From Aquimarina mycalae (GTDB taxonomy: Bacteria > Bacteroidota > Bacteroidia > Flavobacteriales > Flavobacteriaceae), in NCBI RefSeq assembly GCF_029906345.1, contig NZ_JARYGY010000001.1:98851-162850 (forward strand): a DNA stretch of 64,000 nucleotides. Direction: 5' to 3'. Positions 1-35,080 of this stretch are shown here, in pieces. A program made the translations under genes and the position numbers. Under the pieces are notes generated by a model. It had not been told where the DNA came from. It worked only from the letters and a program-made list of their open reading frames with translations, and searched no databases. Position 1 is the first letter of the stretch. The number at the start of each line of letters is the position of its first letter.

Positions 1-1140
1 ATCATCACTCACTGGTGGTGCTGTTGGATCTAATGGGTTAGGTGCACTCGCGACAGCGGTATTGCTAAAGCTACCTGCGGTTATATCTGCTGCGGTGATC
101 ACATAACTCGCGGTATAGGTGCTGTTGTCACTTGCGCCTACTACCAAGTCAATCGTAGTAGCTGGAGTAACGGTAACGGTTGGATCGTCTACCTGAATAT
201 TAAACAGATCGATATTTCCTGTATTGCTCACAGTAAACACATAGTTGATCGTATCTCCTGCATCAATAATACCATTAGCGTTCGTATCTACATAACTATC
301 CGTCTTAGTGATATCCAATAATGGTTGACTTAAATCTGTAACCGTTGGATCATCTGGACTACCATCATTGTCTGGATCAACATCCGTAGGATTGTCTGGA
401 TCATCTGAATCATCCGTGATGTCTGGACCACCTAATGGATCGGTAGCAGTGGCAGTAGCGGTATTGCTAAAACTACCCGCTGTAATGTCTCCCGTGGTGA
501 TGGTGTACGTAGCTGTATAGGTACTGTTATCACTCGCGCCTACTACTAAATCAATCGTAGTGGCTGGAGTAACAGTCACTAAGGCATCCGTAACACTGAT
601 TCCTGTAAGATCGATATTTCCTGTATTGCTCACAGTAAATACATAGTTGATCGTATCTCCTGCATCTATAATACCATTAGCGTTTGTATCTACATAACTA
701 TCCGTCTTGGTGATATCCAGTAAACCTTGTCTAAGGTCGGTGACTGTTGGATCATCTGGATTTCCATCCCCATCATCATCCGTAGCATCTGCAGCATCAT
801 CTGGATCATCTGATAAACTAGTAATTGTATTTCCGTTTGCATCTTCAGCACTTACAGTAGCTGTATTACTAAAACTGCCAGCGGTTATATCAGCTGCTAT
901 AATTGTATAAGTAGCCGTAAAGGTTGAATTATCTGAATTTCCAGCTAACAAAGTAGCTAACGGGCCTCCAGAAACTGTTACAACAGGATCACTTACTGTA
1001 ACATTAGTAATATCAGCAGTACCATTATTCGTTACCGTAAATACATAGTTGATCGTATCTCCTGCATCTATAATACCATTAGCGTTCGTATCTACATAAG
1101 TATCAACTTTGGTAATTTCAAGATCATTTACTACTGGATC
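1..1140 (-). repeat. Tandem 402-bp repeats inside the giant surface-protein gene
   Basis: Three nearly identical 60-base stretches start at 241, 643 and 1045, exactly 402 bases apart. Each 402-bp (134-residue) unit begins with a (V/L)xDITKxDxYVDTNANG-type sequence and matches the DUF7507/DUF11 type of surface repeat. More copies probably lie beyond the left edge. Such long near-identical units can change copy number by recombination and are hard to assemble. Confidence 0.85.
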
Positions 1141-4100
1141 TCTCCAATCTGGTTCTGCTCCTGGGCTGTCAGTATCAGGAAATGGATTATCAGCGGTCTG
1201 TCCTCCATTAGTTGGACCACCTGCATCTGTAACACTTGTTCCGTCAGTATCAAACTCATCATCTAGGCCATCACCATCACTATCTGTACCTAGATTTGTG
1301 AGGTCAGGTGTGGTCCCAATGGTATCTGTACCATCAACCACTCCATCATCATTGCTATCGTAGGCTTCAATAGTATCACTCTCTCCATCTTCATCTGAGT
1401 CAGTATCAATATAATCAGCTCCATCAGTTAATCCATCTGTGTTTTCAGGAGTAATTGGTGTTCCAACTAATCCACAGGTTGCTACTGAGCAATCTGCATC
1501 ATACTGATCATCAATACCATCTCCATCTGTATCATTACCCACTAGAGGAAGGTATACTGAGGTAGATTGTCCTTCTATATTATCTACAATACCATCATCA
1601 TCGGCATCTATATCCAAGAAATTTGGTCCATCTCCTGGATTGGAATCAGAATTCGGTGCTGGCAATGCTGCTCCTGTAATTATTTCTCCTGCACCACTTC
1701 CGTTATCAATAGTATCAACATCATCAGCTAATCCATCACCATCCGCATCTGGATCACTGCCATCTTCAATACCATCGCCATCACTATCTAAAGTTCCTGC
1801 AAAATCAATATCAAAAGCATCGTCAATACCATCCAGATCAATATCAAATCCTCCAGTTACATTCACGTCGACACTATCTGGAATACCATCATTATCTGCA
1901 TCTGCAACGGTATCATTTTGCCCATCTTGATTTACATCAGTTCCACCAGCTTCTAGGACATCTACAATTCCGTCATTATCGCTATCTAGATCAAAATGAT
2001 TTGGTATACCATCTCCATCGAAATCAAATACTGGATCCAATGCATCACAGACACCATTGAGGTCACCATCTAAACATACTGGTGTCGTTGCACTGCCATT
2101 ATCATCAAAATCCTGGTAATTAGGAATCCCATCTCCGTCAGCATCTGCTGAGGGATCAACTCCCAAGCTATTTTCTGCAGTATCAGGAATCCCATCATTA
2201 TCATCATCTAGGTCTAATACGTCCCCAACACTATCATTATCATTATTATCAAAAGTAAGATCACAGGCATCAGCAATTCCATCATTATCTGCATCAGGGC
2301 CTCCAATTTGTTGGTAATCATCTGTTCCATCTGTATCGCCATCTACTGGATCTGTATAGGTTGCCGCCACTACCAATCCATTGGCATCTACGGTACCTGC
2401 AATATCGGTTAATGGCTCTGCTGCGGTATTTCCAGGGTTGTACACACCTCCATCACCTCCATCGGCATTGGCATCTGCATATGCTTCATTGGCATCACTA
2501 CATCCGTCACCATCACTATCTAAAGTAAGGTAATCTAAACTACCATCACTACCTGTATCTGTTGGTGTATTTCCTGCACCACCATTTGCTAAAGACGGAA
2601 CCCCACTAGTAGCTGTATTATCTGTATTGTTGTTATCATCGTCGTGACGTCCTTCCTGTCCTGTTGCTCCACTTAATGTACCGCCTGCCTCTATAGCATC
2701 ATAAATACCATCATTATCAGAATCTAAATCTAAACGATCCGCAATGTTATCACCATCGGTATCTTTATCAAAACACAATACAAAAGAGTTAGCCCTAAAC
2801 AATAACCAGGAATCAAAAACATTATCCCCATTATCAGCCACACCAATCTTAATCGTATTATTTCCTGCTATTAATACGGCAGAAAATGTTATGGTAGTTG
2901 TAAACCCATCTGCCTCGATATTTACTGCTGTAGGGTCTGTTTCGTTATCTATATAAAAAGCACTATCTGTATTGTTATTTACAGTATCAATACTTAGAAA
3001 CGATCCTGAAGGTGTTAGTGCAACATTCGTATTATTTATTATTACTTTAGCTGCATCATTAACTCCTTGATTTACAAAATCATTATATTCTTCTGAAGCA
3101 AAAACAAATTGTCCAGTAATGCTAGTTTCTGCAGGAACATTAATTACAAATTCTAAGCTCGCTACATCAAATTCTGAACTACCTCCTGCAAAATCTGGAT
3201 CTGTACCACCTCCAGCAACACCAGTTCCATTTCCATTAAACCCAAAAGCTGGCCCGAATGTAGCAAACGGAGGAAGTCCTGGTTCGTTCTCGAAAAACTG
3301 ATTGGATAGATTATCGTCCAACTCTAATACATTACCCGAAGAGAAAATAACTCCCGTGCTAAATCCAGCAAAAGCATTAGGGCTACCGCCACTATCTGTT
3401 ATCTGATCTGCGTCATCGAAAGTACCAATCTGAGGGACTAAACCACTTCCTACATTAATACTCGAAGATATCAGAGTAACATCAGTGTTTTCTGCAAATA
3501 ATAACGCTGCCAAAGTACTTGGATTACTTTCTGCTGTAATCTCAAATATAGTATCTGCATCATCTACCAATTCTGTTCCGAATGAGCCTCCTCCAATCGT
3601 ACATTCATCGATATCTAAAATTCCGTCATTATCATCATCCTGATCTACGCCATTTGCCAATCCATCCCCATCAGAGTCGAAATTTGGCATTGCAGGACCT
3701 ACTGGATCTACAATTACTGCTGGAGTTGCACTTTCATCACCAGGCTGGCCATCTGTTATTGTATACGATGTAGTAGGAACAACTATCCCATTTATTGTCG
3801 TTGTTCCCTGTGTAGTAACAAAATTATTATAGGTTGCATTATTCGCTCCTGGAACTGTAGAACCATATTTTCTAAATACATCTATCGCATTGATATTATG
3901 CCAATAAATAATTACATCAGCCGATTGTCCTGCTCCACCACACTGTAAAGTAAAATCCATCAAACCAACTGGATAATCAAAATCATCATCGAGGGACGCC
4001 AATTCTGTCTCTAATAATGGATCCATATTAGTTATCTGTGCACAATCTCCTGTAATTACAACTTCTACGGTTACATATCCGAGTCCTGTAGCATCTACAA

Positions 4101-5799
4101 TAGATGTTACATTAGGTTGCTGAGAATCTGGTATTCCATCATTGTTACCATCACCACCATTAGGACCTGCATCTTCTTCTGCAGTAGGCACTCCATCTCC
4201 ATCATCACAGGCCGTAAATACGGTATTATCGGTTACTGCAGCTACTGCCGTGTTACTATAAGTTGCCGCTATAATCAATCCATTAGCATCTACTTCTCCA
4301 TCAACTACTGTTTGTGGATCATTATCACCATATTGTCCTCCATCATTACCTTCTGCAATATTATTATCTGCTCCTTCATTAGCATCGCTACATATATCTC
4401 CATCACTATTTAAGTTTATATAATCTGGAGTCCCTGGTGTAGTATCTGCAGGAGTCGTTCCTGTTGGTGACACTGTACTTGGTATACCTGTGGTTGCTGT
4501 ATTATCTGCATTATTATCGTCATCAATTTGTCGTCCTTCCTGACCTGGGAATGTACTTGCGGTTCCTCCCGCTTCTACCACATCATAGATACCATCGTTA
4601 TCACTATCCAGGTCTAAGAAATCTTGTATCCCATCACCATCTGTATCTATACATACATTTTCTAATGCTGTAAATCTAAATCCTTCTGCCGATGCTCCTC
4701 CCGTTGCAGAAATCGTAAAGGAGGTTGCTCCAATAGGGAATACTACATTCCATTGTAATAGATTATTATCAATGGCACTTCCTCCTGTTTGGGTAAAATT
4801 TCCTCCGTTTGTTATAGTTGCTCCATCTGCTTGGTCTGTTTGATTTATTGGGTCATTGATAATGGCATCACCTGTACCACCTACCCAACTAATTGTATAG
4901 GTTCCAAAACGTGATCCAAAATCTGGTCCAGGTGGTTCTGGTATTTGAGCATCAGCATCTACATATCCAAACAATGCTAATTGAATATCTGCAGCTCCTG
5001 CGGCTACCGAGAAGTTAGCAGCATCCAAATCCCAATTACCAGCCGCTACTCTATTGTAGTAAAAATATAATTCATTATTTGTAGAAAGTCCAAACTGCTC
5101 TAATTGTCCATTGGTAAAACTATGAGTAATATTCCAGGTAGCTGCTGTACCTGAAGGCAGCGTTATGGTTCCTGACTCGTTACCATCTACATTTCCATCG
5201 TTTGTTGCAGTAAATACTCCAGGTTGTAAGGTTCCATTACATTCTACACTATCTAAAATTCCGTCATTATCATTATCAAGATCAGAAGAATCTGGTTCTC
5301 CGTCATTATCTGAGTCTGGTCCTGTTGCAGTGACCGTAACCGTTAATGTTTGCACATCAGTTCCAGAAGCACTATCTGTTACTGTTATTTCAACAACATA
5401 TATAGCCGCTACTGGAGGTGTATTAAAGGTTAGTATTCCTGAATCATCTATGGAAAATGATGCTACATCAGCCCCTCCAGTTAATGACCAATCTAATTGA
5501 TCTCCATCGCCTGTTCCTTCTACATCCCCATCCGTATCAGTGGCATCCATATCTACTACAGTTCCTGTAGCTCCCGCCGTAAAAGTTGCTGTATTGGTAG
5601 TGGCACTTCCGTTATTAGTAATCACAGGATCCGCATTAACTGCACAACCAGAGGTATCTCCGCTATCCGTAACCGCTGCCACAGCTCCTGTAGTATACGT
5701 AGCTGCTACTACGGCACCATCGGCATTGACAGTTCCTGCTGTTACGGTTAATGGTTCTGCTGCAGTATTACCTGGATTATAAACTCCTCCATCACCCCA
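1..5799 (-). CDS. Giant multidomain surface protein, 3' part (frameshifted continuation, runs off left edge)
   Basis: Read on the minus strand, this frame has no stop codon from 5799 to base 1 (about 1,930 codons) and continues the protein encoded up to 9089. It begins in phase with GGDGGVYNPGNTAAEPLT, the expected continuation of the preceding domain; a paralogous stretch near 2410-2480 reads the same without interruption. In order it carries more Asp-rich calcium-binding repeats, a second choice-of-anchor U-like stretch (about 3730-4060), a choice-of-anchor L-like domain with FVFASEEYNDF (about 2770-3590), long runs of DxDxDGxxD repeats, and at least three copies of a 134-residue DUF7507/DUF11-like repeat starting near 1140. 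The C-terminus, where a T9SS sorting domain would be expected, lies outside the window. It has no start of its own. It is either part of a frameshifted gene or one intact gene with an assembly error. Confidence 0.8.
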
Positions 5800-8700
5800 T
5801 CAGCATTGGCATCACTATATGCTTCATTAGCATCACTACAACCATCTCCATCACTATCGGTTACTTGAAAATCAGGACTTCCTGGTATGTCGGTATCTGT
5901 TATCGTATAGTTTATTGTTCCTGAATCTGCTGGAGTTTCGACTCCATCAAAAAGTCCATTGGTTCCTGATCCTGTATCCTGACCCGTAATTCTACCATTG
6001 GTTTGTGGTAATCCATGTCCAGCTTCAATCACATCATATATACCATCATTATCACTATCCAGATCAAGGAAATCTGGTACTCCATCACCATCGGTATCAA
6101 AGGCAGCTTCGATCGATCCATCTACATTACCAATAGCTCCTGTGGTATCATTATCATCTAAATACGTAAATACTCCATCTGCATCGCCATCACCATATGG
6201 ATCTGAAGGAGATTCATCGGTATTGGTAATACCATCACCATCTACATCTAGGTCTAATGGATCTAAGGTTACATCATTATCGTCATCTATGGCAGATGGT
6301 GCTAAAGGACAAGCGAATCCATCATTACTTGTGGTTACCGCTGTACTATTAAGTAAAGATTCAAAAGGAGCGCCTGTATCATAATCATTAATCAGATACA
6401 TACCTCCATCATTGTAGGATACATATAATCGGTCTTGAGCATCCGTAAAAGCTGCTCCAAAATTAGTCGCTGTGGGAGTAGTTAATCCTCCTACTGTTGA
6501 TTTTTCTAATATTGTAAGATCCCAAATAACGACTTGTTGTGCATCATTTACACCATATAAATTTCCATTAATAAAAGTTACATCATTTACGGTTGTAACT
6601 GGGATTGCTGTACCTCCTGGACCCGTAAAAGTTACAGGTACCAAAACTGGAGGAGGATCACCTACTGCTATTGTAGATACATTATTAATTCTGTGATATT
6701 CCTCTCCAATATTAATCCATAAATTATCTGCGTTATCTACATCACCAGATATTCCTCCACTAGTAAAACCAGAGATCAATCCCAGGTCTTCAAAAGCACC
6801 ATCAGCACCCACACGAAGTAGGTGTCTATTCAATGAAGCTTTTCCTATAGCATATACATAATCATCAAGTCGATTATATCCTGTAGCGTTATATACTTGG
6901 TTAATCGCACCTATCGGAGTTGAATATTCTCCTGATACAGGGTTATAACTTCTCAAGTCTCCTGCGATGATCTGATAAAATACACTAGGGCAATTAAAAG
7001 GTGTTAATGTGCTCGCAAGCGCTGCAACTGCTGGTCCAGAAGGATCTACGATCTCTGCTCCCGTTGCACTTTCATCTCCTGGCAACCCATCTGTAAGTGT
7101 ATATGTTGTTGTTGGCACAGTAGCTGCACCTACTGTAGCAGAACCTGTAGTTACTGTAAAAGCCCCATAAGTTGCATCCATAGCTCCTGGAGCTGAGGAC
7201 CCATATTTTCTAAAGAAATCTATAGTAGATATCCCATGCCAATAATATGTAATACTGGCTATATCTCCTGGAGCACCACATTGTAATGTAAAATCTATTA
7301 ATCCTACTGGATAATTAAATGCTGGGTCCAGCACTCCTACTTCTCCTTCTGTTAAGGATTCCATATTAGTGATCTGAGCACATGTCCCCGAAGTAATTTC
7401 TAAGGTTACATAGGTCGTTCCTGTAGCATCTGGTATCGAACCCACATTACCTTGCAGAGAATCTAAGGTTCCGTCATCGTTACCATCTCCTCCATTCGGA
7501 CCTGCGTCTTCAATAACATCTGCAATATTATCTCCATCATCAACAGTACAAGCTGTAGCATCTCCATTATTAGTTACTGCCGCAGTAGTATTTTGTGGAC
7601 TTCCAGATACTGTAGGTACTCCATCTACATCAACCACATCTCCTAAACTATCATCTCCATCTAAATCGCCAGCAACAAAAGTTCCTGCTCCTTCAATTGC
7701 ATCAGGACAAGTATCACCATCTGCATCTGTATCCTGAAAATCGGGATTACCAGCTATATCCGTATCGGTTATTGTATAATTTATGGTTCCAGAATCCGCA
7801 GGAGTTTCCACTCCATCAAAAAGTCCATTGGCGCCCGATCCTGTATCCTGACCTGTGATTCTACCATTAGTATGCGGTAATCCATGACCAGCTTCTACCA
7901 CATCATAAATACCATCATTATCACTATCTAGGTCAAAAAAGTCAGGTACTCCATCACCATCGGTATCAAAAGCAGCCTCTACCGCTCCATCTACGTTACC
8001 AATAGCTCCAGTAGTATCATTATCATCTAAATACGCAAATATTAAATCACCATCGCCATCTGCAAAAGGATCAGAAGGAGATTCATCTATATTGGTCATT
8101 CCATCACCGTCCAAATCTAAATCAAAAGGATCTAATAAATTATCTTCATCTTGATCTATAGAGGAAGGTGCATTAGCACAAGCGAAACCGTCATTACGTG
8201 TTACATTATCAGTACTTGACAAATAGGTTGCAAAGGGAGCATTGGTTGTGTAATCCTCTATAAGATATAATCCTCCATCATTGTTGGATACATATAATCT
8301 ATCTCCATCATCAGAAAATACTGCTCCATAATTTTGACTACCAGTGGCAGGAAGCCCTGTAATTGCTTCAATTCGTCTGCCTGGTGTTGGTGTAATTTCC
8401 CAAATATATAAACTAGTGCCATCTACTCCATAAAAAGCACCATTAATAAATACTATATCTAATGGAGTCATAGATCCAGGTGCTGTTCCTCCAAAAAATG
8501 GATTGGCCAAATTGGTTGTAGTTATAGTCGCTGCGGGATTGGCTGGTAGTGTCGATACATTATCTATTCTACGTAGCCTTTCTCCGCTTCTAAGATATAG
8601 ATCATCATTAGCATCTACATCACCAGCGATAAAAGGGGAAGTTACGTCTAACACTCCTAAATCATCAAAATTACCATTACTATCTATACGAATTAAATGA

Positions 8701-9089
8701 TTAGCAGAAGGTTCGGTATTTTCTATAATTGCATACAAGTAATTATCTGTGGTATTATAGCCACCTGCATTGTACACTTCTAAGGTACTTAAGGCTGTAC
8801 CATAAGTCCCATCAGCTGGGCTATATGGACGTAACTCTCCATTAATTACTTGATAAAATGTACTCGGACAAGTAAACGGTGTTGTTGCCTGGCTATATCC
8901 TATAGTACTGATTAACGAGATCAGCACAAACATGATTACAAAATGACTTTTTACTTGTTGTAAAAGTTGACCTTTTTTTGAGGCTTTTTTAAACTCAAAA
9001 ATGAAGTCATTTACTGTCTGTATTTTATTGTGTAGTTGGGTAAAAAATTTCATAAGCAATTGCTTGAGTATTTTATTAATTGTATCCAT
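5748..9089 (-). CDS. Giant multidomain surface protein, 5' part up to a frameshift
   Basis: This 1113-codon frame is the N-terminal part of a very large secreted protein, probably an adhesin. Residues 1-50 are an unusually long charged lead-in; a hydrophobic signal segment follows (about 50-64, ending near GYSQ). Next comes a DUF6923-like domain (about 72-310) starting FTCPSTFYQ, then Asp-rich DxDxDG calcium-binding repeats (about 311-550) and a region resembling choice-of-anchor U (about 555-670). The DUF6923-like domain and Asp repeats then occur a second time (about 690-1090), so the N-terminal half is an internal duplication. The last 14 or so residues do not fit the family: the frame slips near 5797 and ends at a chance stop, while the expected sequence continues in another frame to the left edge. 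A second start at residue 13 (MKFFTQ) is possible. The product is probably exported to the cell surface. It is the last gene of an operon with two small proteins upstream. Confidence 0.85.
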   Translation of the reverse strand: MDTINKILKQLLMKFFTQLHNKIQTVNDFIFEFKKASKKGQLLQQVKSHFVIMFVLISLISTIGYSQATTPFTCPSTFYQVINGELRPYSPADGTYGTALSTLEVYNAGGYNTTDNYLYAIIENTEPSANHLIRIDSNGNFDDLGVLDVTSPFIAGDVDANDDLYLRSGERLRRIDNVSTLPANPAATITTTNLANPFFGGTAPGSMTPLDIVFINGAFYGVDGTSLYIWEITPTPGRRIEAITGLPATGSQNYGAVFSDDGDRLYVSNNDGGLYLIEDYTTNAPFATYLSSTDNVTRNDGFACANAPSSIDQDEDNLLDPFDLDLDGDGMTNIDESPSDPFADGDGDLIFAYLDDNDTTGAIGNVDGAVEAAFDTDGDGVPDFFDLDSDNDGIYDVVEAGHGLPHTNGRITGQDTGSGANGLFDGVETPADSGTINYTITDTDIAGNPDFQDTDADGDTCPDAIEGAGTFVAGDLDGDDSLGDVVDVDGVPTVSGSPQNTTAAVTNNGDATACTVDDGDNIADVIEDAGPNGGDGNDDGTLDSLQGNVGSIPDATGTTYVTLEITSGTCAQITNMESLTEGEVGVLDPAFNYPVGLIDFTLQCGAPGDIASITYYWHGISTIDFFRKYGSSAPGAMDATYGAFTVTTGSATVGAATVPTTTYTLTDGLPGDESATGAEIVDPSGPAVAALASTLTPFNCPSVFYQIIAGDLRSYNPVSGEYSTPIGAINQVYNATGYNRLDDYVYAIGKASLNRHLLRVGADGAFEDLGLISGFTSGGISGDVDNADNLWINIGEEYHRINNVSTIAVGDPPPVLVPVTFTGPGGTAIPVTTVNDVTFINGNLYGVNDAQQVVIWDLTILEKSTVGGLTTPTATNFGAAFTDAQDRLYVSYNDGGMYLINDYDTGAPFESLLNSTAVTTSNDGFACPLAPSAIDDDNDVTLDPLDLDVDGDGITNTDESPSDPYGDGDADGVFTYLDDNDTTGAIGNVDGSIEAAFDTDGDGVPDFLDLDSDNDGIYDVIEAGHGLPQTNGRITGQDTGSGTNGLFDGVETPADSGTINYTITDTDIPGSPDFQVTDSDGDGCSDANEAYSDANADGVMEEFIIQVILQQNH
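5791..5801 (-). other. Single-base frameshift site in the giant surface-protein gene
   Basis: On the minus strand the text reads GATGGGGTGATGG where the domain pattern needs one extra base (GAT GGN GGT GAT GG). The paralogous stretch at about 2450-2475 reads GATGGAGGTGATGG, which encodes the expected ADGGDGG. The loss falls in a run of four G and moves translation from the frame ending at 5748 into the frame that is open to base 1. It could be a true mutation, a phase-variable tract or a sequencing error. Confidence 0.8.
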
Positions 9090-9130: not shown

Positions 9131-9613
9131 TTATACAATGAGGCATATCGCTGATAAAGTCCATCCGAAAAAATACTTATGGAAGACTATACGATATCCT
9201 AAGACCATTGTTGTAATTTCTTTTAATACTGTATTTTTATTCAATATGATTTCATCTACTTTTTTTATGTCAAAAGAAGCTCCAGATGATATATTCGATT
9301 TTTGAACCTCTACCTTTTTATTTAGTGTTGCAGAAGTTTTAGCATTCGTTTTTGCGTGTATTATTTTAGAATTAGTCCGTAAACTCTGAATGTCGAAGCT
9401 TAACATATCAGAACCAAAATCTTCATAGTCACAAATAGTATGGTCCTGGAATAGATCTACATTCTCATTTGAGAATGAAACCACATTATTCTGCGCAAAG
9501 CTGGAAGGTATTGTATTGATGTATATACATATAACAACAAACCACACAACGTGCTGAGTTCTTTTTTTTCTGAAATATTTATTTTTATTTGAGATTTTCA
9601 GTGTCTTTTTCAT
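9131..9613 (-). CDS. Small exported protein upstream of the giant surface protein, unknown function
   Basis: A 160-residue protein that I do not recognise. It has a basic N-terminus, a hydrophobic segment (about 22-38) and a likely signal cleavage after SSFAQ. A polar Asn/Lys/Ser-rich middle follows, and a hydrophobic stretch ends the protein (about 130-160), so it may be anchored at both ends. Its start overlaps the stop of the preceding 112-codon gene by four bases (ATGA), which suggests translational coupling. The giant protein gene starts 41 bases after its stop. Position suggests a role in export or anchoring of the giant protein; that is inference. Confidence 0.6.
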   Translation of the reverse strand: MKKTLKISNKNKYFRKKRTQHVVWFVVICIYINTIPSSFAQNNVVSFSNENVDLFQDHTICDYEDFGSDMLSFDIQSLRTNSKIIHAKTNAKTSATLNKKVEVQKSNISSGASFDIKKVDEIILNKNTVLKEITTMVLGYRIVFHKYFFGWTLSAICLIV

Positions 9614-9948
9614 AGCATTTTTTTTTGGGTATTTTCATAAAGAACCTTTGTTCTAAAAGAAGTATTTAGAACATGTAGGTTCGCTTGATCAATTGGCAAT
9701 TGATCATTAATAGATTTGGATGTAGTATTATGAAAAAATTCGTATTGAGAAGAGTAGGTAGCAATGTGTTCAATACATAAAATAGAAAATAGTAAAATTA
9801 ATATGGCAAAACCATATAATTTTGTTGGTTTATTATTATATTTCCTATTAGAAAAATAATCAGTATCCTTAGATATGTAATTTTGCTTTACAAAAGGTAT
9901 ACTTTCCTTAACCTTAGAGAAAAAAGATATAAAGGAATATTTAATCAT
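9610..9948 (-). CDS. Small single-span membrane protein, unknown function
   Basis: A 112-residue protein with no family I recognise. An amphipathic basic N-terminus (MIKYSFISFFSKVKES) is followed by one clear membrane segment (about 44-62) and a polar tail. It is coupled to the next gene by an ATGA overlap and lies 35 bases downstream of the conserved-loop hairpin at 9985-10027. It is part of the unit hairpin, 112 aa, 160 aa, giant protein. The ORF could be a chance reading, but the overlap and the membrane segment argue for a real gene. Confidence 0.55.
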   Translation of the reverse strand: MIKYSFISFFSKVKESIPFVKQNYISKDTDYFSNRKYNNKPTKLYGFAILILLFSILCIEHIATYSSQYEFFHNTTSKSINDQLPIDQANLHVLNTSFRTKVLYENTQKKML

Positions 9949-9984
9949 AATGGTTGATTTACTTTTAAATTAATCGTTATTCAG

Positions 9985-10027
9985 ACCCTGCTCTTGTTAG
10001 CTCGCCAAAGTTGTACAATTGCGGGGT
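9985..10027. promoter_or_regulatory. Conserved-loop hairpin, copy 1 (12-19-12)
   Basis: Imperfect 12-base arms (ACCCTGCTCTTG and CAATTGCGGGGT on the plus strand) enclose a 19-base loop, TTAGCTCGCCAAAGTTGTA. A second copy at 15674-15716 has the same geometry and 18 of 19 loop bases, but clearly different arms that still pair. It lies 35 bases upstream of the start of the 112-codon gene, so it is probably in the 5' leader of the giant-protein operon. On the plus strand it is followed by TTGTTTTTT, so it could also terminate plus-strand transcripts. I do not recognise it as a known RNA family. Confidence 0.65.
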
Positions 10028-10046
10028 TGTTTTTTATATATCAGTC

Positions 10047-10301
10047 TTATGTTATTACATATAAGATTTTTGATTTTTTATGTAATGTATTCTTGTTTAT
10101 CGCTTGTATATTTTGAGACATTTTATCGTTACACACTTCAATATATTCTGTATTATGAATCACTACCTTATATATAGGTAATTCGGGTACAGCAGCTTTG
10201 CATATACCAGTACATATTATAATTATAAGGAAGAAAGAAACAGGCAATAAGAAACAGCTTGTTAATTTTTGGATTAATGTAGTAAAAGTAATTTCTCTCA
10301 T
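10047..10301 (-). CDS. Small membrane leader protein, copy 1
   Basis: An 84-residue protein starting MREITFTTLIQKL, with one hydrophobic segment (about 17-35) ending near CKAA and a polar tail. I chose this start, not one 21 codons upstream, because the same TGCTTATGAG context marks the start of its 46-residue counterpart at 15761-15901, which shares the pattern TF-x-x-L(I/L)-x-L and a central LLP. Both sit just upstream of a conserved-loop hairpin and a secreted-protein operon. Function unknown; it may be a regulatory leader or a small membrane partner. Confidence 0.5.
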   Translation of the reverse strand: MREITFTTLIQKLTSCFLLPVSFFLIIIICTGICKAAVPELPIYKVVIHNTEYIEVCNDKMSQNIQAINKNTLHKKSKILYVIT

Positions 10302-10364
10302 AAGCAAATACATTAGGTACATAAATTCATAAATAGATATCATGGGGCACACAATATTATTCAA

Positions 10365-11042
10365 ATGAATTATGACAAATTGATCTTATAAAGTAATTGG
10401 TAGCTTATTAAAACATATTATTCAATATATACTATACTTAGGACTAAGGTGGGGTGAGAAAATGAATGTCTTAAGTAAAGTTTATAAATATGCTCGCTAT
10501 TTATTATTAAATAAAAATTACGTTTAGTTTTTTTTAACATTATAAATTTATGCATAATTCATTGATTTTTAACCCGTTATAACCTCAAATTAATTATGGT
10601 AAAACCTTATTTTAAAAATTAACTCTTGTTTATGTCTTGAAATTAAATTAATGTCAGCTAATCAGGTAATTCGATAAGAATATTTCATGAAATGAGGTAA
10701 ATTTCCCCGAATTAATAACAATGATTCAACGAAATATTTGGGGAATTTTCCGAATAAATTTAATTTAATACCATTTATTTAATAAATTAACATTTCTATT
10801 ATGTTAAAAAAAAAATATAAAAGTCTAATCAGAATCAATTCACCATGTGTACTTTAACCGTAAAAACAATAAGTTAATCGTATTGAATATCTTTTTTTTC
10901 TTACATAAAAAACTAATATGCAACGTATTATTCACCACAATATATTGTAAAACAATGCCATAATTACCACTATAAACAGCATCAGAAATCATTAATAATT
11001 AACGTAAAACTAGTTTAATGAAAACAAGACCAGATTATGCTT
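10365..11042. other. Gene-free spacer with promoter-like conserved block and ACGGGGAA motifs
   Basis: No convincing gene was found on either strand in these 678 bases. The spacer holds the upstream part of leader module 1. Bases 10536-10606 resemble 16141-16212, sharing AACATTATAAAT, a CATAA element and TATGGT(A/T)AAACC. It also has two ACGGGGAA-type motifs at 10696-10712 and 10737-10755. The shared block is the likely promoter or operator region for the giant-protein operon on the minus strand. Confidence 0.5.
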
Positions 11043-12146
11043 TTACTTATTAATTACGGTTCTGAATCCTTTATGTTCTGAAGAAGAATCTAAACTATTA
11101 CCCATTCTTGACGAAATTCTATAACTTGCACAATAAGAAGCATTACATAAAAAAGAGCCTCCTTTTATTACTTTTTCTTTTGATCCACCTGCAGCACCTT
11201 TAGGATTATAAAGTGTATCCTTTTTTATGGTGGTATAATATTCTGGCACATACCAATCTGATGTCCACTCCCATACATTACCAGCCATATCATAAATACC
11301 AAAAGCATTGTGTACATAGGATGCTACTGGTGCAGATCCAAAGAATCCATCTATCTTATCATTTTTTATTGGAAAATTGCCCGTATAGGTATTTGCAGAC
11401 TTATTCAATATATCTGGGTCGTTTCCCCAAGTAAATATTGTTAATTCCTGACCTCCTGTAGCTGCATACTCCCATTGAGCTTCTGTTGGCAATTCTCTTC
11501 CAGCCCACTTGCAGTAAGCCAAAGCGTCTTCATAAGCAATATGTACCACTGAATGATTCTCTTTATCTTTAATTGAACTGCCTGGACCTTGAGGTTGTCT
11601 CCAATTAGCTCCGATTTTCCATAACCACCATTGAGAAAAATCATAGAGGTTTGTTACTCCATTGGATCTCTCTTTAAAAATCAAAGATCCTGGTTGTAAC
11701 AAAGAATCATGAGGTTTGGGCGTTCCTGGAGGCAATTGTTTTTTGATCTCATCCCAATCTACTGGCCTTTCGGCTAATGTGATATATCCTGTTTCTTGTA
11801 CAAACCTGGTAAATTTTGCATTGGTGACTTCTGTAATATCTATTAAAAAACTATCTACGCTTACTACATGTCTTGGTTTTTCATGTGACATCGCCCATGA
11901 ATCTGACTCCTTTGCTCCTTGATAAAAAACACCTTTTGGGATCCAAACCATTCCCTCAGGAATTGTATCTGTATTCTTATGTTCTTCTTTATGATCAATT
12001 TTTATCTTACCTTCTCTATTACATGATGAAATCACTAATGTTATCATTAAAAGAAATATCATCAAAAATCTATTTTGAGCAGAAATTATATTGTAGAAAC
12101 CGATACTCATTTTATTATTTTGGTAACAAGTACTCTTTTTTTTCAT
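11043..12146 (-). CDS. Formylglycine-generating enzyme family lipoprotein (SUMF1/FGE)
   Basis: This 367-residue protein should oxidise the active-site Cys of type I sulfatases to formylglycine. The FGE-sulfatase domain spans about 62-365, starting at MVWIPKGVFYQG. The two Cys that define active FGE are present, five residues apart (C334 and C339 in SFLCNASYCASYR), and the domain ends in GFR as usual. The N-terminus has a lipobox (VISSC), so it is predicted to be a lipoprotein acting outside the cytoplasm; a start 12 codons later (MSIGFYN) is equally likely. It lies 190 bases downstream of a sulfatase with the matching CxPxR motif and is probably co-transcribed with it. GldK and other SUMF-like proteins often lack the Cys pair, which favours a true FGE here. 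Confidence 0.88.
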   Translation of the reverse strand: MKKKSTCYQNNKMSIGFYNIISAQNRFLMIFLLMITLVISSCNREGKIKIDHKEEHKNTDTIPEGMVWIPKGVFYQGAKESDSWAMSHEKPRHVVSVDSFLIDITEVTNAKFTRFVQETGYITLAERPVDWDEIKKQLPPGTPKPHDSLLQPGSLIFKERSNGVTNLYDFSQWWLWKIGANWRQPQGPGSSIKDKENHSVVHIAYEDALAYCKWAGRELPTEAQWEYAATGGQELTIFTWGNDPDILNKSANTYTGNFPIKNDKIDGFFGSAPVASYVHNAFGIYDMAGNVWEWTSDWYVPEYYTTIKKDTLYNPKGAAGGSKEKVIKGGSFLCNASYCASYRISSRMGNSLDSSSEHKGFRTVINK

Positions 12147-12277
12147 CTGTTGGTTTTAAGATTTAAAAACAAGTTTAACCTTTTTATTATTACAATAAAA
12201 AAAGATTGCCCAAAAAGTAGTTTACAATTATCAAATAGACACATTGCTTTTCCACTTCTCAGACAATCTCTTAATCA

Positions 12278-12324
12278 TATTCAACTGGGATTATGGGACC
12301 CACATTTATGGACCCAGTTGAATA
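12278..12324. repeat. Perfect 12-bp inverted repeat between sulfatase and FGE genes
   Basis: TATTCAACTGGG at 12278-12289 is matched exactly by its inverse at 12313-12324, with a 23-base loop that contains its own small palindrome TGGGACCCA. No U-run follows on the minus strand, so it is not a standard terminator. It may be an mRNA-processing or stabilising stem-loop, or a protein site. Confidence 0.7.
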
Positions 12325-12336
12325 CATAAAAAATCA

Positions 12337-15300
12337 CTATAATTTTATTAATTGTTTGGTAGTTACTTGATTATCAATATTAATTTTCATAAAATACTGC
12401 CCAACAGGTAACTGAAGATCAGAAACATTAATTTCTGACTTATTATTATAAGATCTTAAAAACACAGATTGTCCTAAACTATTAAATATTCTGACTTCTG
12501 CACGTTCGTATTCACCGCCTTTAACAGAAATCTGTATTTGATCGGTAAACGGATTTGGGTATAATGAAATAATATAATTCTGGGTGATCAGTTCTTGTTG
12601 CATTGGTTTGGTATTTTCTTTATTGGTTAATTGTGTATTTCCTTTTGCACTCGCTGGAATTGAGCAACCATTTATTACTACATCATCAATATATACCCAG
12701 TCAGAATTACCTGAAGCATCTGCTCTAAATCTCAATTGCGTATTTGCTGTAAATGGCCCTGTTATGATTACCTGATCATTATACCTTTGATCATTTACAA
12801 ACTCATCATTTAAGTTCCATTCCTCAACCGTGCTAAAGTTAGCTCCCCCATCGGTTGAGATTTGAAACCAAAAGTCTTCATTTACATTATCCATACTACG
12901 ACAGTAATATGAGAAATCAATTGTTAATTCTTCATAAGCTGATAAATCCATGGTATCTGTTGTCATTACAGAAGTTGAAGTATTATCACGTAATCGTATA
13001 CAATAGGTTCCTGTATTGGCATATGCAGCATCATTTGCACTTCTTCTGGCATCTGATCCTCCATCATTCCAGATTCCCCATCCAGATTCGAAACCTTCTG
13101 TGTTGATTACTGAATATGTACACTCTGTTGGTGGGTCAACACCTTCTATACAACCAGCGCTCCTTACATCTGCAGCCTTTAATTCTGTACTATAAACAGC
13201 TACCGCATCCATTTTTCCTGTAAAAAAACTATCCGCCGTTACCCCAAAACTATCCGTAGTCTGTACTCCTGCAATTCCTCCTGATCCAATATGTGATGGA
13301 ATAGATGTAGGAGCTGCGTTACTGGATGAAGCCAATAAACCATCTACATATAAAGAGTGATTTGTAATACTACCATTATACGTAACGGCTACATGATGCC
13401 AATCTCCGTCATTTGGGAAAGCTGTACTCAATTGATTTATCGGACTTGCACTACTTCGTACTACAGATTCTAGAGTAGCTCCATTTAATCTAATGGCAAT
13501 TCCGTTAGAACCTCCTCCTTCTTCAAAAAGTTCTTGTACTCCTGATAATCCAGTTGGTTTTACCCACATTGCTATGGATCTTTGTGTCATTGCGGCTATC
13601 ATAAATGGCCCAGGATTTTGGCTGTACTGTACTTTAGTTGCTCCATCAAAAACAATGGATTGATCGCCTTCTTTAAAATCTACTGCATCATACGATACCG
13701 TTCCTGTAACAGTAATCGCATTGTTACTATTTGCAGAATAATCGTCTGTTCCTACTCCAGAATCAAAATTCCATAATGCAGCGTATGTATCAGGCGCCAC
13801 ACAAGAAGGATCGACAGGAGGTTGTGTAACCTCAATAATTTCGGGTAACGGAACTGTGTTTCCATTGCTTCTAAAGGTTGGAAGCGGTGCCGACACATTA
13901 ATCAAGTAATTTCTTAGGTCTGTACTCATATCATTGGCAATGGTTAAAGTTGCCGTATCTGGTGAACCTGCTAATAAATTGGTAGTTTCACTAATATCTG
14001 TTGTTAGATTATATAAATCATAAGAAGCGGTTTCATAATAATGAATCAATTTATAATCTCCTTTTCTGATAATTGAAACTGGTCTTTGATCTCTTTGGCT
14101 GTTTGCTATATATCCAGGAAAATGCCAGTATAAAGCATCTCGCCCAAGGTTTGGATTCACTCCAGTAAGCATATCCCACTGACTCACTCCATCGATATCA
14201 TAACCAGATGGTAGTGAAGCTCCTGAAATTTCAGCTAATGTTGGATATAGATCGAAAGCCTGAATAGGTGTATTATTTACCGTACCCATATTGGCCAATA
14301 ATCCCTCAGACCAAGCAAAAGTAACCGAACGGATTCCTCCTTCTGTATACTCTCCTTTCATTCCTTTAAGCGGCACATTATCTTCTGGTCCATTGGCGCC
14401 TCCATTATCCGAAATGAAATACACCAAGGTATTTGCCGATAACATATTGCCAGGATTACGTGGATCTGGCGTCGTTTTCAGGTAATCAATAATTCTTCCT
14501 ATGGTTTGATCCATACCTTCTAATATAGCTGCCTGAGATACGTTATCGTGCCCTATTTGACTTGGGTTCGTATTATTTTTAACTACATACTTAGCATATA
14601 AGTCAGGCCGCGCATTGGCCTGACCCCAAGGACCGTGTATTGCATAATTACTAAAATGCATAAAAAACGGTGTATTATTATTAGCATTCATAAAATCTAT
14701 AGCCGCATCCCCTAATGCATCTGTAACATGTTTGGTAGTCCCTTCTAATGAATTATCACCTGCAAGCGCCAGAGATTCTGCTGCTGTATATGGACTGGCA
14801 TAAATATCCAATTCTGGGCCTATTCTGGGATGAAACTCCCAATTACCTCCTGATAAGGCAGCAAAATAAGAACCTGGTGCTCCATCAGAGTCTCCTCCAA
14901 AATTTACATCAAAACCTTGATCTAAAGGGCCATTGTTCAAACTCCCTCCAGAATGATATTTACCAAAATGAGCTGTGGTATATCCTGCTGTTTTTACGGT
15001 TTCTGCAATAGTAATGGCACTGGCTGGAATTTCATCCTCTCCGTTAGAAAGTCCTTGACTCGGTCCAACCAATAAGGAATTACTATCTCCTCTATTTAAC
15101 CCATTTACCGCAAATACATTATTGGTAGGTCTGGATGCCCATTGTCCACTCAGAATTGCTGCTCTTGTAGGAGCACAATTTGCTCCGTTTACATAAGAAT
15201 TAGGAAAAGCAATTCCTTCTGCTGCCAGAGTAGCTATTCGTGGAGTTTCGTAAAAATCACTGGGATTGTTCATACTGGTTTCATTAGAACTGGTCTGAGA

Positions 15301-15411
15301 CCATCCCATATCATCTGCTATAATCACCACAACATTGGGTGATTGAGCATACATTGTACTACTGATTACAACTGCAAGAAGTAATAGTAATATTTGAGTA
15401 TTCTTTTTCAT
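12337..15411 (-). CDS. Secreted type I sulfatase with LamG-like domain and T9SS sorting signal
   Basis: A 1024-residue secreted sulfatase, probably acting on sulfated algal or animal polysaccharide. A signal peptide (MKKNTQILLLLL...MYAQ) is followed by the sulfatase domain with metal-binding DD near residue 33 and the active-site C79-A-P-T-R83, which needs conversion to formylglycine. A LamG-like lectin domain (about 545-745), a jelly-roll-like segment (about 760-910) and a type A T9SS C-terminal domain (about 935-1024, YPNPFTDQIQ to QLIKL) follow. The longer frame begins at 15462, but the signal peptide clearly starts at 15411. The FGE gene lies downstream on the same strand. The sulfated substrate cannot be read from sequence. 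Confidence 0.92.
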   Translation of the reverse strand: MKKNTQILLLLLAVVISSTMYAQSPNVVVIIADDMGWSQTSSNETSMNNPSDFYETPRIATLAAEGIAFPNSYVNGANCAPTRAAILSGQWASRPTNNVFAVNGLNRGDSNSLLVGPSQGLSNGEDEIPASAITIAETVKTAGYTTAHFGKYHSGGSLNNGPLDQGFDVNFGGDSDGAPGSYFAALSGGNWEFHPRIGPELDIYASPYTAAESLALAGDNSLEGTTKHVTDALGDAAIDFMNANNNTPFFMHFSNYAIHGPWGQANARPDLYAKYVVKNNTNPSQIGHDNVSQAAILEGMDQTIGRIIDYLKTTPDPRNPGNMLSANTLVYFISDNGGANGPEDNVPLKGMKGEYTEGGIRSVTFAWSEGLLANMGTVNNTPIQAFDLYPTLAEISGASLPSGYDIDGVSQWDMLTGVNPNLGRDALYWHFPGYIANSQRDQRPVSIIRKGDYKLIHYYETASYDLYNLTTDISETTNLLAGSPDTATLTIANDMSTDLRNYLINVSAPLPTFRSNGNTVPLPEIIEVTQPPVDPSCVAPDTYAALWNFDSGVGTDDYSANSNNAITVTGTVSYDAVDFKEGDQSIVFDGATKVQYSQNPGPFMIAAMTQRSIAMWVKPTGLSGVQELFEEGGGSNGIAIRLNGATLESVVRSSASPINQLSTAFPNDGDWHHVAVTYNGSITNHSLYVDGLLASSSNAAPTSIPSHIGSGGIAGVQTTDSFGVTADSFFTGKMDAVAVYSTELKAADVRSAGCIEGVDPPTECTYSVINTEGFESGWGIWNDGGSDARRSANDAAYANTGTYCIRLRDNTSTSVMTTDTMDLSAYEELTIDFSYYCRSMDNVNEDFWFQISTDGGANFSTVEEWNLNDEFVNDQRYNDQVIITGPFTANTQLRFRADASGNSDWVYIDDVVINGCSIPASAKGNTQLTNKENTKPMQQELITQNYIISLYPNPFTDQIQISVKGGEYERAEVRIFNSLGQSVFLRSYNNKSEINVSDLQLPVGQYFMKINIDNQVTTKQLIKL

Positions 15412-15524
15412 ATATATGGTATTAAGTTTTTTAAAATTTATAATTATAAACCTATACGACATAGTCTCTTTTATCTCACATACAAACAGCTACATAAAAG
15501 CCTACATCGCGCTTGAAAGTTGAT

Positions 15525-15632
15525 TCATGAAGTATTTGAAAATTGAAAAAAAGAATTTGGTATGCGAATTTGAGGTAACAACATTTTGGTAAGCACATGT
15601 ACTCTCCTCCATTCGTTAGAAGACATTTTCAT
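15525..15632 (-). CDS. Short ORF (35 aa) after hairpin copy 2, coding status uncertain
   Basis: A 35-codon frame starting MKMSSNEWRRVH. It begins about 40 bases after hairpin copy 2, in the position where the 112-codon gene begins after hairpin copy 1, and the DNA just before the two starts is similar (AAATCAACCA). The encoded peptides are not alike. It may be a leader peptide of the sulfatase operon, a relic, or chance. Confidence 0.3.
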   Translation of the reverse strand: MKMSSNEWRRVHVLTKMLLPQIRIPNSFFQFSNTS

Positions 15633-15673
15633 AGTTGGTTGATTTAGTTATTAAAAAATTAATCATTATTCAC

Positions 15674-15716
15674 ACGCTATATTTGCTAGCTCGCCAAAGT
15701 TGTACAAATACAGCGT
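15674..15716. promoter_or_regulatory. Conserved-loop hairpin, copy 2 (12-19-12)
   Basis: Arms ACGCTATATTTG and CAAATACAGCGT (11 of 12 pairs, with the remaining one a G-U pair in minus-strand RNA) enclose the loop CTAGCTCGCCAAAGTTGTA. Compared with copy 1, arm positions 3 and 7 change on both sides while pairing is kept, and 18 of 19 loop bases are identical. It lies about 260 bases upstream of the sulfatase start, in its presumed 5' leader. Confidence 0.65.
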
Positions 15717-15760
15717 TGTTTATTTTTAGTTTATATTTTGTTATTGAAAAATATCATGTC

Positions 15761-34601: not shown

Positions 34602-34689
34602 TTCCTAAATGACTTAATTTTACAATTACCGGAAAAAAGTATGCAGTTTACCCATACCTAAACTTCTATCCCGAAAGTTTGACATTACG

Positions 34690-35010
34690 AATTTAGGCAG
34701 GTCTCCTGGCTTGCGTCTTGTTGTTTACCTTCCCACCTGAACTGAACTTCTTTCAGTTTCTTTTTAAAATAATTTTAAAAGATGTCGAAACAAGTTCGAC
34801 ACAAGCAGTGGTTATAAAGAATTAACAACAAACACCTACTACGATCTGAAAACATCATTTTTCAATATCGACTCGGCAAAGCTTACAGTTGCGGGAACAG
34901 CTCAGGAATATTAATATACAATATTAGATACTAGATTCAGGGTTTAAAAAATCCTAATTCATAACCGTACTACTGTACTTTATTTCACCTGATTCCCTTT
35001 TAATCATCAA
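34690..35010 (-). ncRNA. Cobalamin riboswitch
   Basis: On the minus strand the B12 box GCAAGCCAGGAGACCTGCC is at 34696-34714. Upstream in the right order are GGGAAGG, CCACTG, CCCGCAACTGTAA and AAAAGGGAATCAGGTGAAAT, all conserved parts of this riboswitch class. It ends about 89 bases before the receptor start, so it should shut off receptor synthesis when cobalamin is bound. Limits are approximate; the 5' end could reach 35032. Confidence 0.92.
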
Positions 35011-35080
35011 CCTTATGCATAAGGTATCAGAACCAAAATTCTGCGCGAATGTATTATATTTCTTTGAAAATGCCTTCAAT

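Follow-up and report, generated by a model that had tools for sequence, protein, structure and literature searches.

What is the hairpin that occurs twice, with one loop and two largely different stems, near a giant gene of Aquimarina mycalae (Flavobacteriaceae)? The analysed stretch, hereafter the window, comprises 64,000 nt of this genome (assembly GCF_029906345.1, contig NZ_JARYGY010000001.1, positions 98,851 to 162,850, forward strand). A first-pass annotation of the window had described hairpins at 9985-10027 (copy 1) and 15674-15716 (copy 2) as a 43-nt RNA or DNA element with a selected structure. Both hairpins lie at these positions with the 12-19-12 geometry proposed, their loops are identical at 18 of 19 nt, and the two compensatory stem changes are present (C-G to G-C at position 3 and C-G to T-A at position 7). 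Within the window there are two occurrences of the 18-mer TAGCTCGCCAAAGTTGTA (9998-10015 and 15687-15704), where shuffling predicts 0.04 matches at up to three mismatches. Counted by eye out of 12 standard pairs, copy 1 forms 10 when the plus strand is read (including one G.T) and 9 when the minus strand is read; the corresponding values for copy 2 are 11 and, counting a G.T, all 12. As described below, the element is very probably the 3′ end of a structured RNA read from the plus strand, and its copies appear to constitute a small-RNA family of Aquimarina and related marine bacteria that is new to description.

The structure was evaluated with two covariance models: R1, built on the minus strand from 23 copies and used with a match threshold of E ≤ 0.01, and a two-hairpin model, R2, run on the fetched loci and the A. 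mycalae genome. In the minus-strand model, 95.4% of cells from 70 distinct copies were paired and 65 cells carried double changes, versus 12.0 after shuffling; in slid controls, pairing dropped to 42-52%. The plus-strand two-hairpin structure was paired in 95.8% of cells from 54 diverse copies (92.4% shuffled) and contained 28 double-change cells versus 4.9 shuffled, these counts being compared with shuffles irrespective of kinship among copies. The loop was far more conserved than the stems.

Although the R1 stems covary, a minus-strand RNA was rejected because the plus strand fits far better. The consensus energy calculated with alifold was −35.8 kcal/mol for the plus strand versus −18.3 kcal/mol for the minus strand. 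Over 69 copies, the mean folding energy was −23.4 versus −13.95, with the plus strand more stable in 58. Moreover, several stem pairs switch among A-U, G-U and G-C on the plus strand, changes that would give A.C mismatches on the other. The plus-strand structure of 105 distinct copies contained 432 G.U and 46 A.C cells, a count that favours the plus strand in that the structure was derived on it. The minus-strand structure yielded 112 G.U and 23 A.C cells, 73 of the 112 coming from one small, nearly invariant helix. For copy 1, the folding z-score was −6.14 on the plus strand and −0.93 on the minus strand. Thus, the selected structure and nearly invariant loop of the first-pass annotation were borne out, while the strand had to be revised: the fold on the plus strand argues against a sense-strand leader for the minus-strand genes.

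The 43-nt hairpin, H2, proved to be part of a larger unit. The conserved unit extends over about 100 nt and includes a second conserved hairpin, H1, just upstream on the plus strand; H2 is the second of the two at the 3′ end of a predicted RNA of roughly 160-240 nt. At least six T occur in the 10 nt after the stem in 95 of 105 distinct copies. With the fold on the plus strand, the earlier side remark on antisense transcripts, prompted by the T-rich run, is the better half of the original reading. A conventional terminator scan, which covered loops of 3-8 nt only, detected none at copy 1. A coding role for the plus strand was also rejected: by eye, the frame that is open over the hairpins in the stand-alone locus L014 is interrupted by stops in close relatives such as L008.

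The conserved region has gene-like bounds. In an alignment of class A, comprising 21 distinct copies that stand alone, with flanks of about 300 nt, mean identity was 0.15-0.49 outside, 0.68-0.87 in an upstream block (with TATATTGTG and the palindrome TACGG-N4-CCGTA), 0.37-0.50 in the roughly 100-nt body, 0.73-1.0 in H1 and H2, and 0.22 past the tail. Because part of the box and part of the loop served to select class A, these letters are conserved by design; no such selection applied to the palindrome, H1, the tail or the bounds. A second set of 23 copies, including copy 1 and chosen by a palindrome and TAT(A/C)TTTC, had the same layout. In a scan of 98 copies, the palindrome stood 34 nt ahead of TATATTG in 13 copies and 33 nt ahead of TAT(A/C)TTTC in 13, and three more had a different palindrome at −41 before TATATTTG. 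The same scan picked a box for copy 1 other than TATATTTC and found no convincing palindrome/box pair for many others, including copy 2, at which there is no clear promoter-like block. TATATTGT fits the SM5 motif TAnnTTGY, and TATATTTG fits the sigmaA motif TAnnTTTG of Flavobacterium psychrophilum. In that species, SM5 and sigma-54 sites drive the remFG-sprCDBF adhesin operon (PMC9723704, in excerpt). We infer that the upstream block acts as a promoter of the plus-strand RNA. The alternative that it forms a hairpin of a long minus-strand RNA was set aside since its position better suits a plus-strand promoter. The palindrome changes in a compensatory manner between copies, copy 1 included (TACGG/CCGTA, TATGG/CCATA and TACAG/CTGTA), which a fixed operator does not explain; in some class A copies it is lost.

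As the first-pass annotation had anticipated of a covariance-model search, there were many Aquimarina matches, with covarying stems and often ahead of exported-protein genes. R1 matched 31 of the 52 Aquimarina genomes sampled, with one to six copies each, and 6 of 249 Flavobacteriaceae genomes: A. mycalae, one more Aquimarina and four of other genera. Carriers outside Aquimarina included Dokdonia, Kordia and Algibacter, in which the element likewise lies ahead of long exported-protein genes. The A. mycalae genome (5.19 Mb, 28 contigs) carries four copies. The loop, at up to two mismatches, occurred in 34 of 91 genomes including A. mycalae, several sites lacking a hairpin and looking like chance. 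Exact 19-mers in an alphaproteobacterial metagenome-assembled genome and in Colwellia gave no model match (16 of 74 matching stretches were given to the model) and were taken as chance. Spread by plasmids, phages or viruses was dropped as an explanation because no matches were found: a stand-alone copy had none in plasmids or phages, and viral contigs had none to the exact loop pattern. At five loci (L093, L087, L106, L195 and L196), two to four tandem copies lie within about 2 kb.

What might such an RNA do? Many copies are antisense to the 5′ ends of long exported-protein genes, and many of these antisense copies cover the start codon of a leader open reading frame (ORF) of about 100 codons. 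Among the 23 palindrome/TAT(A/C)TTTC copies, the frame starting at the ATG beside H1 is open for 80 codons in 22, versus none in either other frame. The leader frame is likewise open for 80 codons in 32 of 57 other ATG-bearing copies and in none of 24 class A copies. Nevertheless, substitutions in the leader ORF are nearly equal across codon positions 1, 2 and 3 (414, 445 and 494 in 25 pairs, which share sequences and so are not independent), and neither of the two leader-side ORFs tested matched Pfam. A constrained protein product was rejected on these grounds, and the ORF is treated solely as a translated frame. A frame that is kept while its product drifts is expected if the act of translation alone matters, as in a coupled leader such as Tap. 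Of the 54 copies with an open leader ORF, 26 are followed by an ORF other than TrmH. In 12 of these 26 loci, the next start lies −4 to +15 nt from the leader stop, and in 15 it lies −25 to +31 nt from it. Among the remaining open-leader copies, 13 are followed by TrmH at 251-382 nt, 12 have no next ORF by the rule of the script, and in three the frame reaches the end of the locus.

A CopA-like mechanism is the best fit to three features, namely a leader ORF that is open yet unconstrained, the overlap with its start codon, and a loop that stays constant while the stems drift: the antisense RNA opposite giant-gene leaders may block leader-ORF translation, with stand-alone copies acting in trans. 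We advance this reading tentatively, as one that falls a little short of probable. More specifically, a plus-strand RNA ending in H1, H2 and the U-rich tail, and at copy 1 antisense to the start of the giant-gene operon, would pair with the leader mRNA across the leader start codon, starting from loop-loop contact, and stop leader translation. Giant-gene translation would be lowered as well, since in many cases the leader ORF stops on or close to the start codon that follows. Stand-alone copies, having the same loop, could act in trans on such leaders. The role of copy 2, which lacks both a leader ORF and a distinct promoter-like block, is less certain.

Gliding-type adhesins of very large size are costly, and little is known of how they are switched. 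If the CopA-like reading is true, a compact RNA family with a nearly invariant loop opposite giant-adhesin leader starts would be a direct point of control, in a phylum of which few small RNAs have been studied. It would also be a chromosomal case of leader-ORF-coupled antisense control, which to our knowledge is known only from plasmid and toxin-antitoxin systems.

Several observations weigh against the CopA-like reading. In 11 of the 26 loci, the distance from leader stop to next start exceeds 31 nt and reaches 399 nt. TrmH-side copies have a leader ORF and no giant gene; copy 2 and other sulfatase copies have no leader ORF. There is no conserved minus-strand promoter: of 54 copies with the ORF, 14 have TAnnTTTG in the 285 nt upstream versus 13.9 expected, and a TTG at −33 accompanies none of these motifs. 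The giant-gene mRNA need not, therefore, contain the complement of H2. In the same scan, the motif was present in 15 of 22 stand-alone copies versus 4.1 expected. The folding z-score of copy 2 gives the plus strand only a slight advantage (−2.11 versus −1.65). Finally, the loops of two of the four A. mycalae copies are divergent and do not match.

The variation of the loop bears on how copies might act together. Three copies of one genome share a CTCTAC loop and two copies of another share CTCTCC, while TAG..GTTGTA is common to sulfatase-side and giant-gene-side copies in A. mycalae and one other genome (G039). Loop likeness within genomes exceeds what overall similarity predicts, being reached in none of 1000 label permutations. 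It is possible that this sharing arose through shared ancestry or gene conversion. A bolder proposal, which we consider unlikely, is a genome-wide antisense network: the RNA of every copy could pair with all giant-gene leaders through the shared loop, loop variants would mark compatibility groups like those of plasmid copy-number control, and the stand-alone copies would be master repressors that choose which giant adhesins are made. Such a network predicts that loops change together across the copies of a genome while stems drift, and this is partly seen.

The same loop data would suit a nearly invariant site for an RNA-binding protein, which stand-alone copies titrate or carry, the overlap with giant-gene leaders being secondary. 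The much greater conservation of loop than of stems, the joint change of loops within genomes and the very existence of stand-alone copies are all consistent with this explanation, and there is a precedent in RbpB of Bacteroides, which binds a 14-member paralogous small-RNA family (PMC11697453, in excerpt). We regard it as doubtful: it leaves unexplained why the leader ORF is open but unconstrained and why the start codon is overlapped. The search for protein partners covered NusG only. That stand-alone copies keep the loop conserved could also reflect a trans-acting RNA with the loop as seed and mRNA targets beyond its own neighbours. This is improbable, as the A. mycalae genome contains just four perfect 11-mer complements of the loop core, three of them inside elements; with perfect 11-mers alone considered, the loop was rejected as a general seed.

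A sense leader on the minus strand, whether riboswitch, stability hairpin or antitermination signal for long genes, would account for the position of the element ahead of such genes, and the H2 stem covaries on that strand too. The folding energies, z-scores and G.U versus A.C counts point to the plus strand, however, and stand-alone copies have no gene to lead. Moreover, 11 of the 31 element-bearing genomes, A. mycalae included, show one NusG match only, for which reason antitermination by a NusG paralog was dropped. A minus-strand leader is hence quite improbable. Very improbable is a DNA element, such as a recombination or transposition site working as a single-stranded hairpin. Multiple copies, at times several within 2 kb, would be in keeping with it, as would stand-alone copies with unlike flanks in different species and an ORF near one of them (L075) that we take to be transposase-like. 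Against it stand the promoter-like block and U-rich tail that bound the conserved region, and the lack of matches in plasmids and phages (one stand-alone copy searched) and in viral contigs (exact loop pattern).

The features of the two window copies and their neighbours are compiled in Table 1.

Table 1. Features associated with the two copies of the element in the window.
Feature	Position	Strand	Basis or remark
Copy 1, predicted small RNA, about 188 nt	9849..10036	+	Predicted start just past the −7-like box, end at the U-rich tail; locus L034
Palindrome TATGG-N5-CCATA, promoter-like block of copy 1	9802..9816	+	Read from sequence
TATATTTC, −7-like box (sigmaA consensus TAnnTTTG)	9837..9844	+	Box was a selection criterion in the 23-copy set
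Copy 1, hairpin H1, 15 pairs, 4-nt loop	9947..9980	+	Folding, alignment
Copy 1, hairpin H2 (originally noted hairpin with outer pairs)	9984..10028	+	Folding, alignment
Copy 1, loop, 19 nt, nearly invariant among copies	9997..10015	+	Alignment
Copy 1, U-rich tail	10029..10037	+	Read from sequence
Copy 2, two-hairpin module with U-rich tail	15622..15726	+	H1 15631-15669, H2 15672-15719
Leader ORF, 112 codons	9610..9948	-	Start codon at base of H1; 4-nt overlap with next ORF; no Pfam match
Second ORF, 160 codons, between leader ORF and giant gene	9131..9613	-	No Pfam match
Giant repetitive exported-protein gene, leaves the window	1..9089	-	Open 5748-9089, other frame 1-5682
Secreted sulfatase, type A type IX secretion system (T9SS) sorting domain	12337..15462	-	Downstream (minus) of copy 2

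Copy 1 faces the gene for a giant DUF6923-repeat protein. Between 5640 and 5860, the frame of this gene shifts, one open stretch stopping at 5748 and another spanning 5682 to the window edge; sequencing error and real variation are both possible. The copy 2 module sits 160-264 nt ahead of the sulfatase start codon on the minus strand, where the sulfatase is followed by a sulfatase-modifying-factor-like gene (both within 11043-15462). The models gave 108 hits, of which two had no readable loop and two were misread by the loop pattern (L084 and L239); 106 were classed by the minus-strand sequence that follows the element, taken as far as 1.3 kb downstream. Twenty lie beside a TrmH-type gene, 15 are class A, 10 precede a sulfatase, 48 precede some other open stretch longer than 150 residues and 13 are unclassified. 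One element-side giant gene was seen complete: its 5150-aa product has a T9SS sorting domain of type B, and its neighbour is sprF-like. Other giant genes leave the fetched DNA, some beyond 5900 aa. In TrmH-side copies (L074, L079, L086, L102, L108 and others), the minus strand has a motif conserved around CATTTTGACGATGTGTTTACTT at some 300-450 nt past the element. Next to it comes a strong hairpin that resembles a terminator and has a conserved loop; a second copy is present in L019 and L102.

Comparison with known RNAs supports the earlier statement that the element matches no known riboswitch. Rfam gave no match above threshold at the element, the only gathering-score match in the window being a cobalamin riboswitch (34679-35052, minus strand, 53.4 bits), and the fold is on the strand opposite to that of a riboswitch for the minus-strand genes. 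Permissive Rfam searches, made with copy 1, a complete locus and a single stand-alone copy, returned sub-threshold matches only. Among these, the stand-alone copy scored 17.3 bits against the CopA family (RF00042; threshold 60, E 1.5), a value that falls short of membership and was not used as evidence; CopA was absent from the matches of copy 1 up to E 10. The open-access PMC literature contained no paper joining Aquimarina, small RNA and antisense, and two joining sprB, antisense RNA and Flavobacterium (PMC9723704 is one of them), subscription journals being outside the search.

In the Sok/mok/hok system, an antisense RNA blocks a leader ORF that is coupled to the next gene. The block proposed here would be of the same kind, although no toxin is implied. 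Within the Bacteroidota, the DonS-like cis-antisense RNAs of Bacteroides (78-128 nt) target susC homologs and are likewise encoded opposite the starts of surface-protein genes (PMC7366714, in excerpt). They differ in that the present copies face giant-protein leaders and include stand-alone paralogs with a common loop. Further, DonS-like RNAs are divergent to the susC homolog of a polysaccharide utilization locus, whereas copy 1 faces the DUF6923-repeat gene and copy 2 a sulfatase. The FopS RNAs of Bacteroides thetaiotaomicron are also a multi-copy paralogous family, repressing translation near the start codons of surface-protein operons, with some members antisense. As far as the excerpted description goes (PMC11697453), they have a single-stranded 5′ seed and one terminator hairpin, by contrast with the two hairpins and conserved 3′ loop found here. 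The closest parallel in mechanism would be CopA/Tap/RepA of R1-type (IncFII) replicons, in which CopA inhibits RepA by keeping Tap, whose translation is coupled to that of repA, from being translated (PMC12779154, in excerpt). A short stem-loop antisense RNA, a coupled leader ORF and loop-first pairing are described for that system and are predicted here from sequence. Unlike CopA, the present element is chromosomal and multi-copy, has stand-alone copies, and would control the gene of an exported giant protein.

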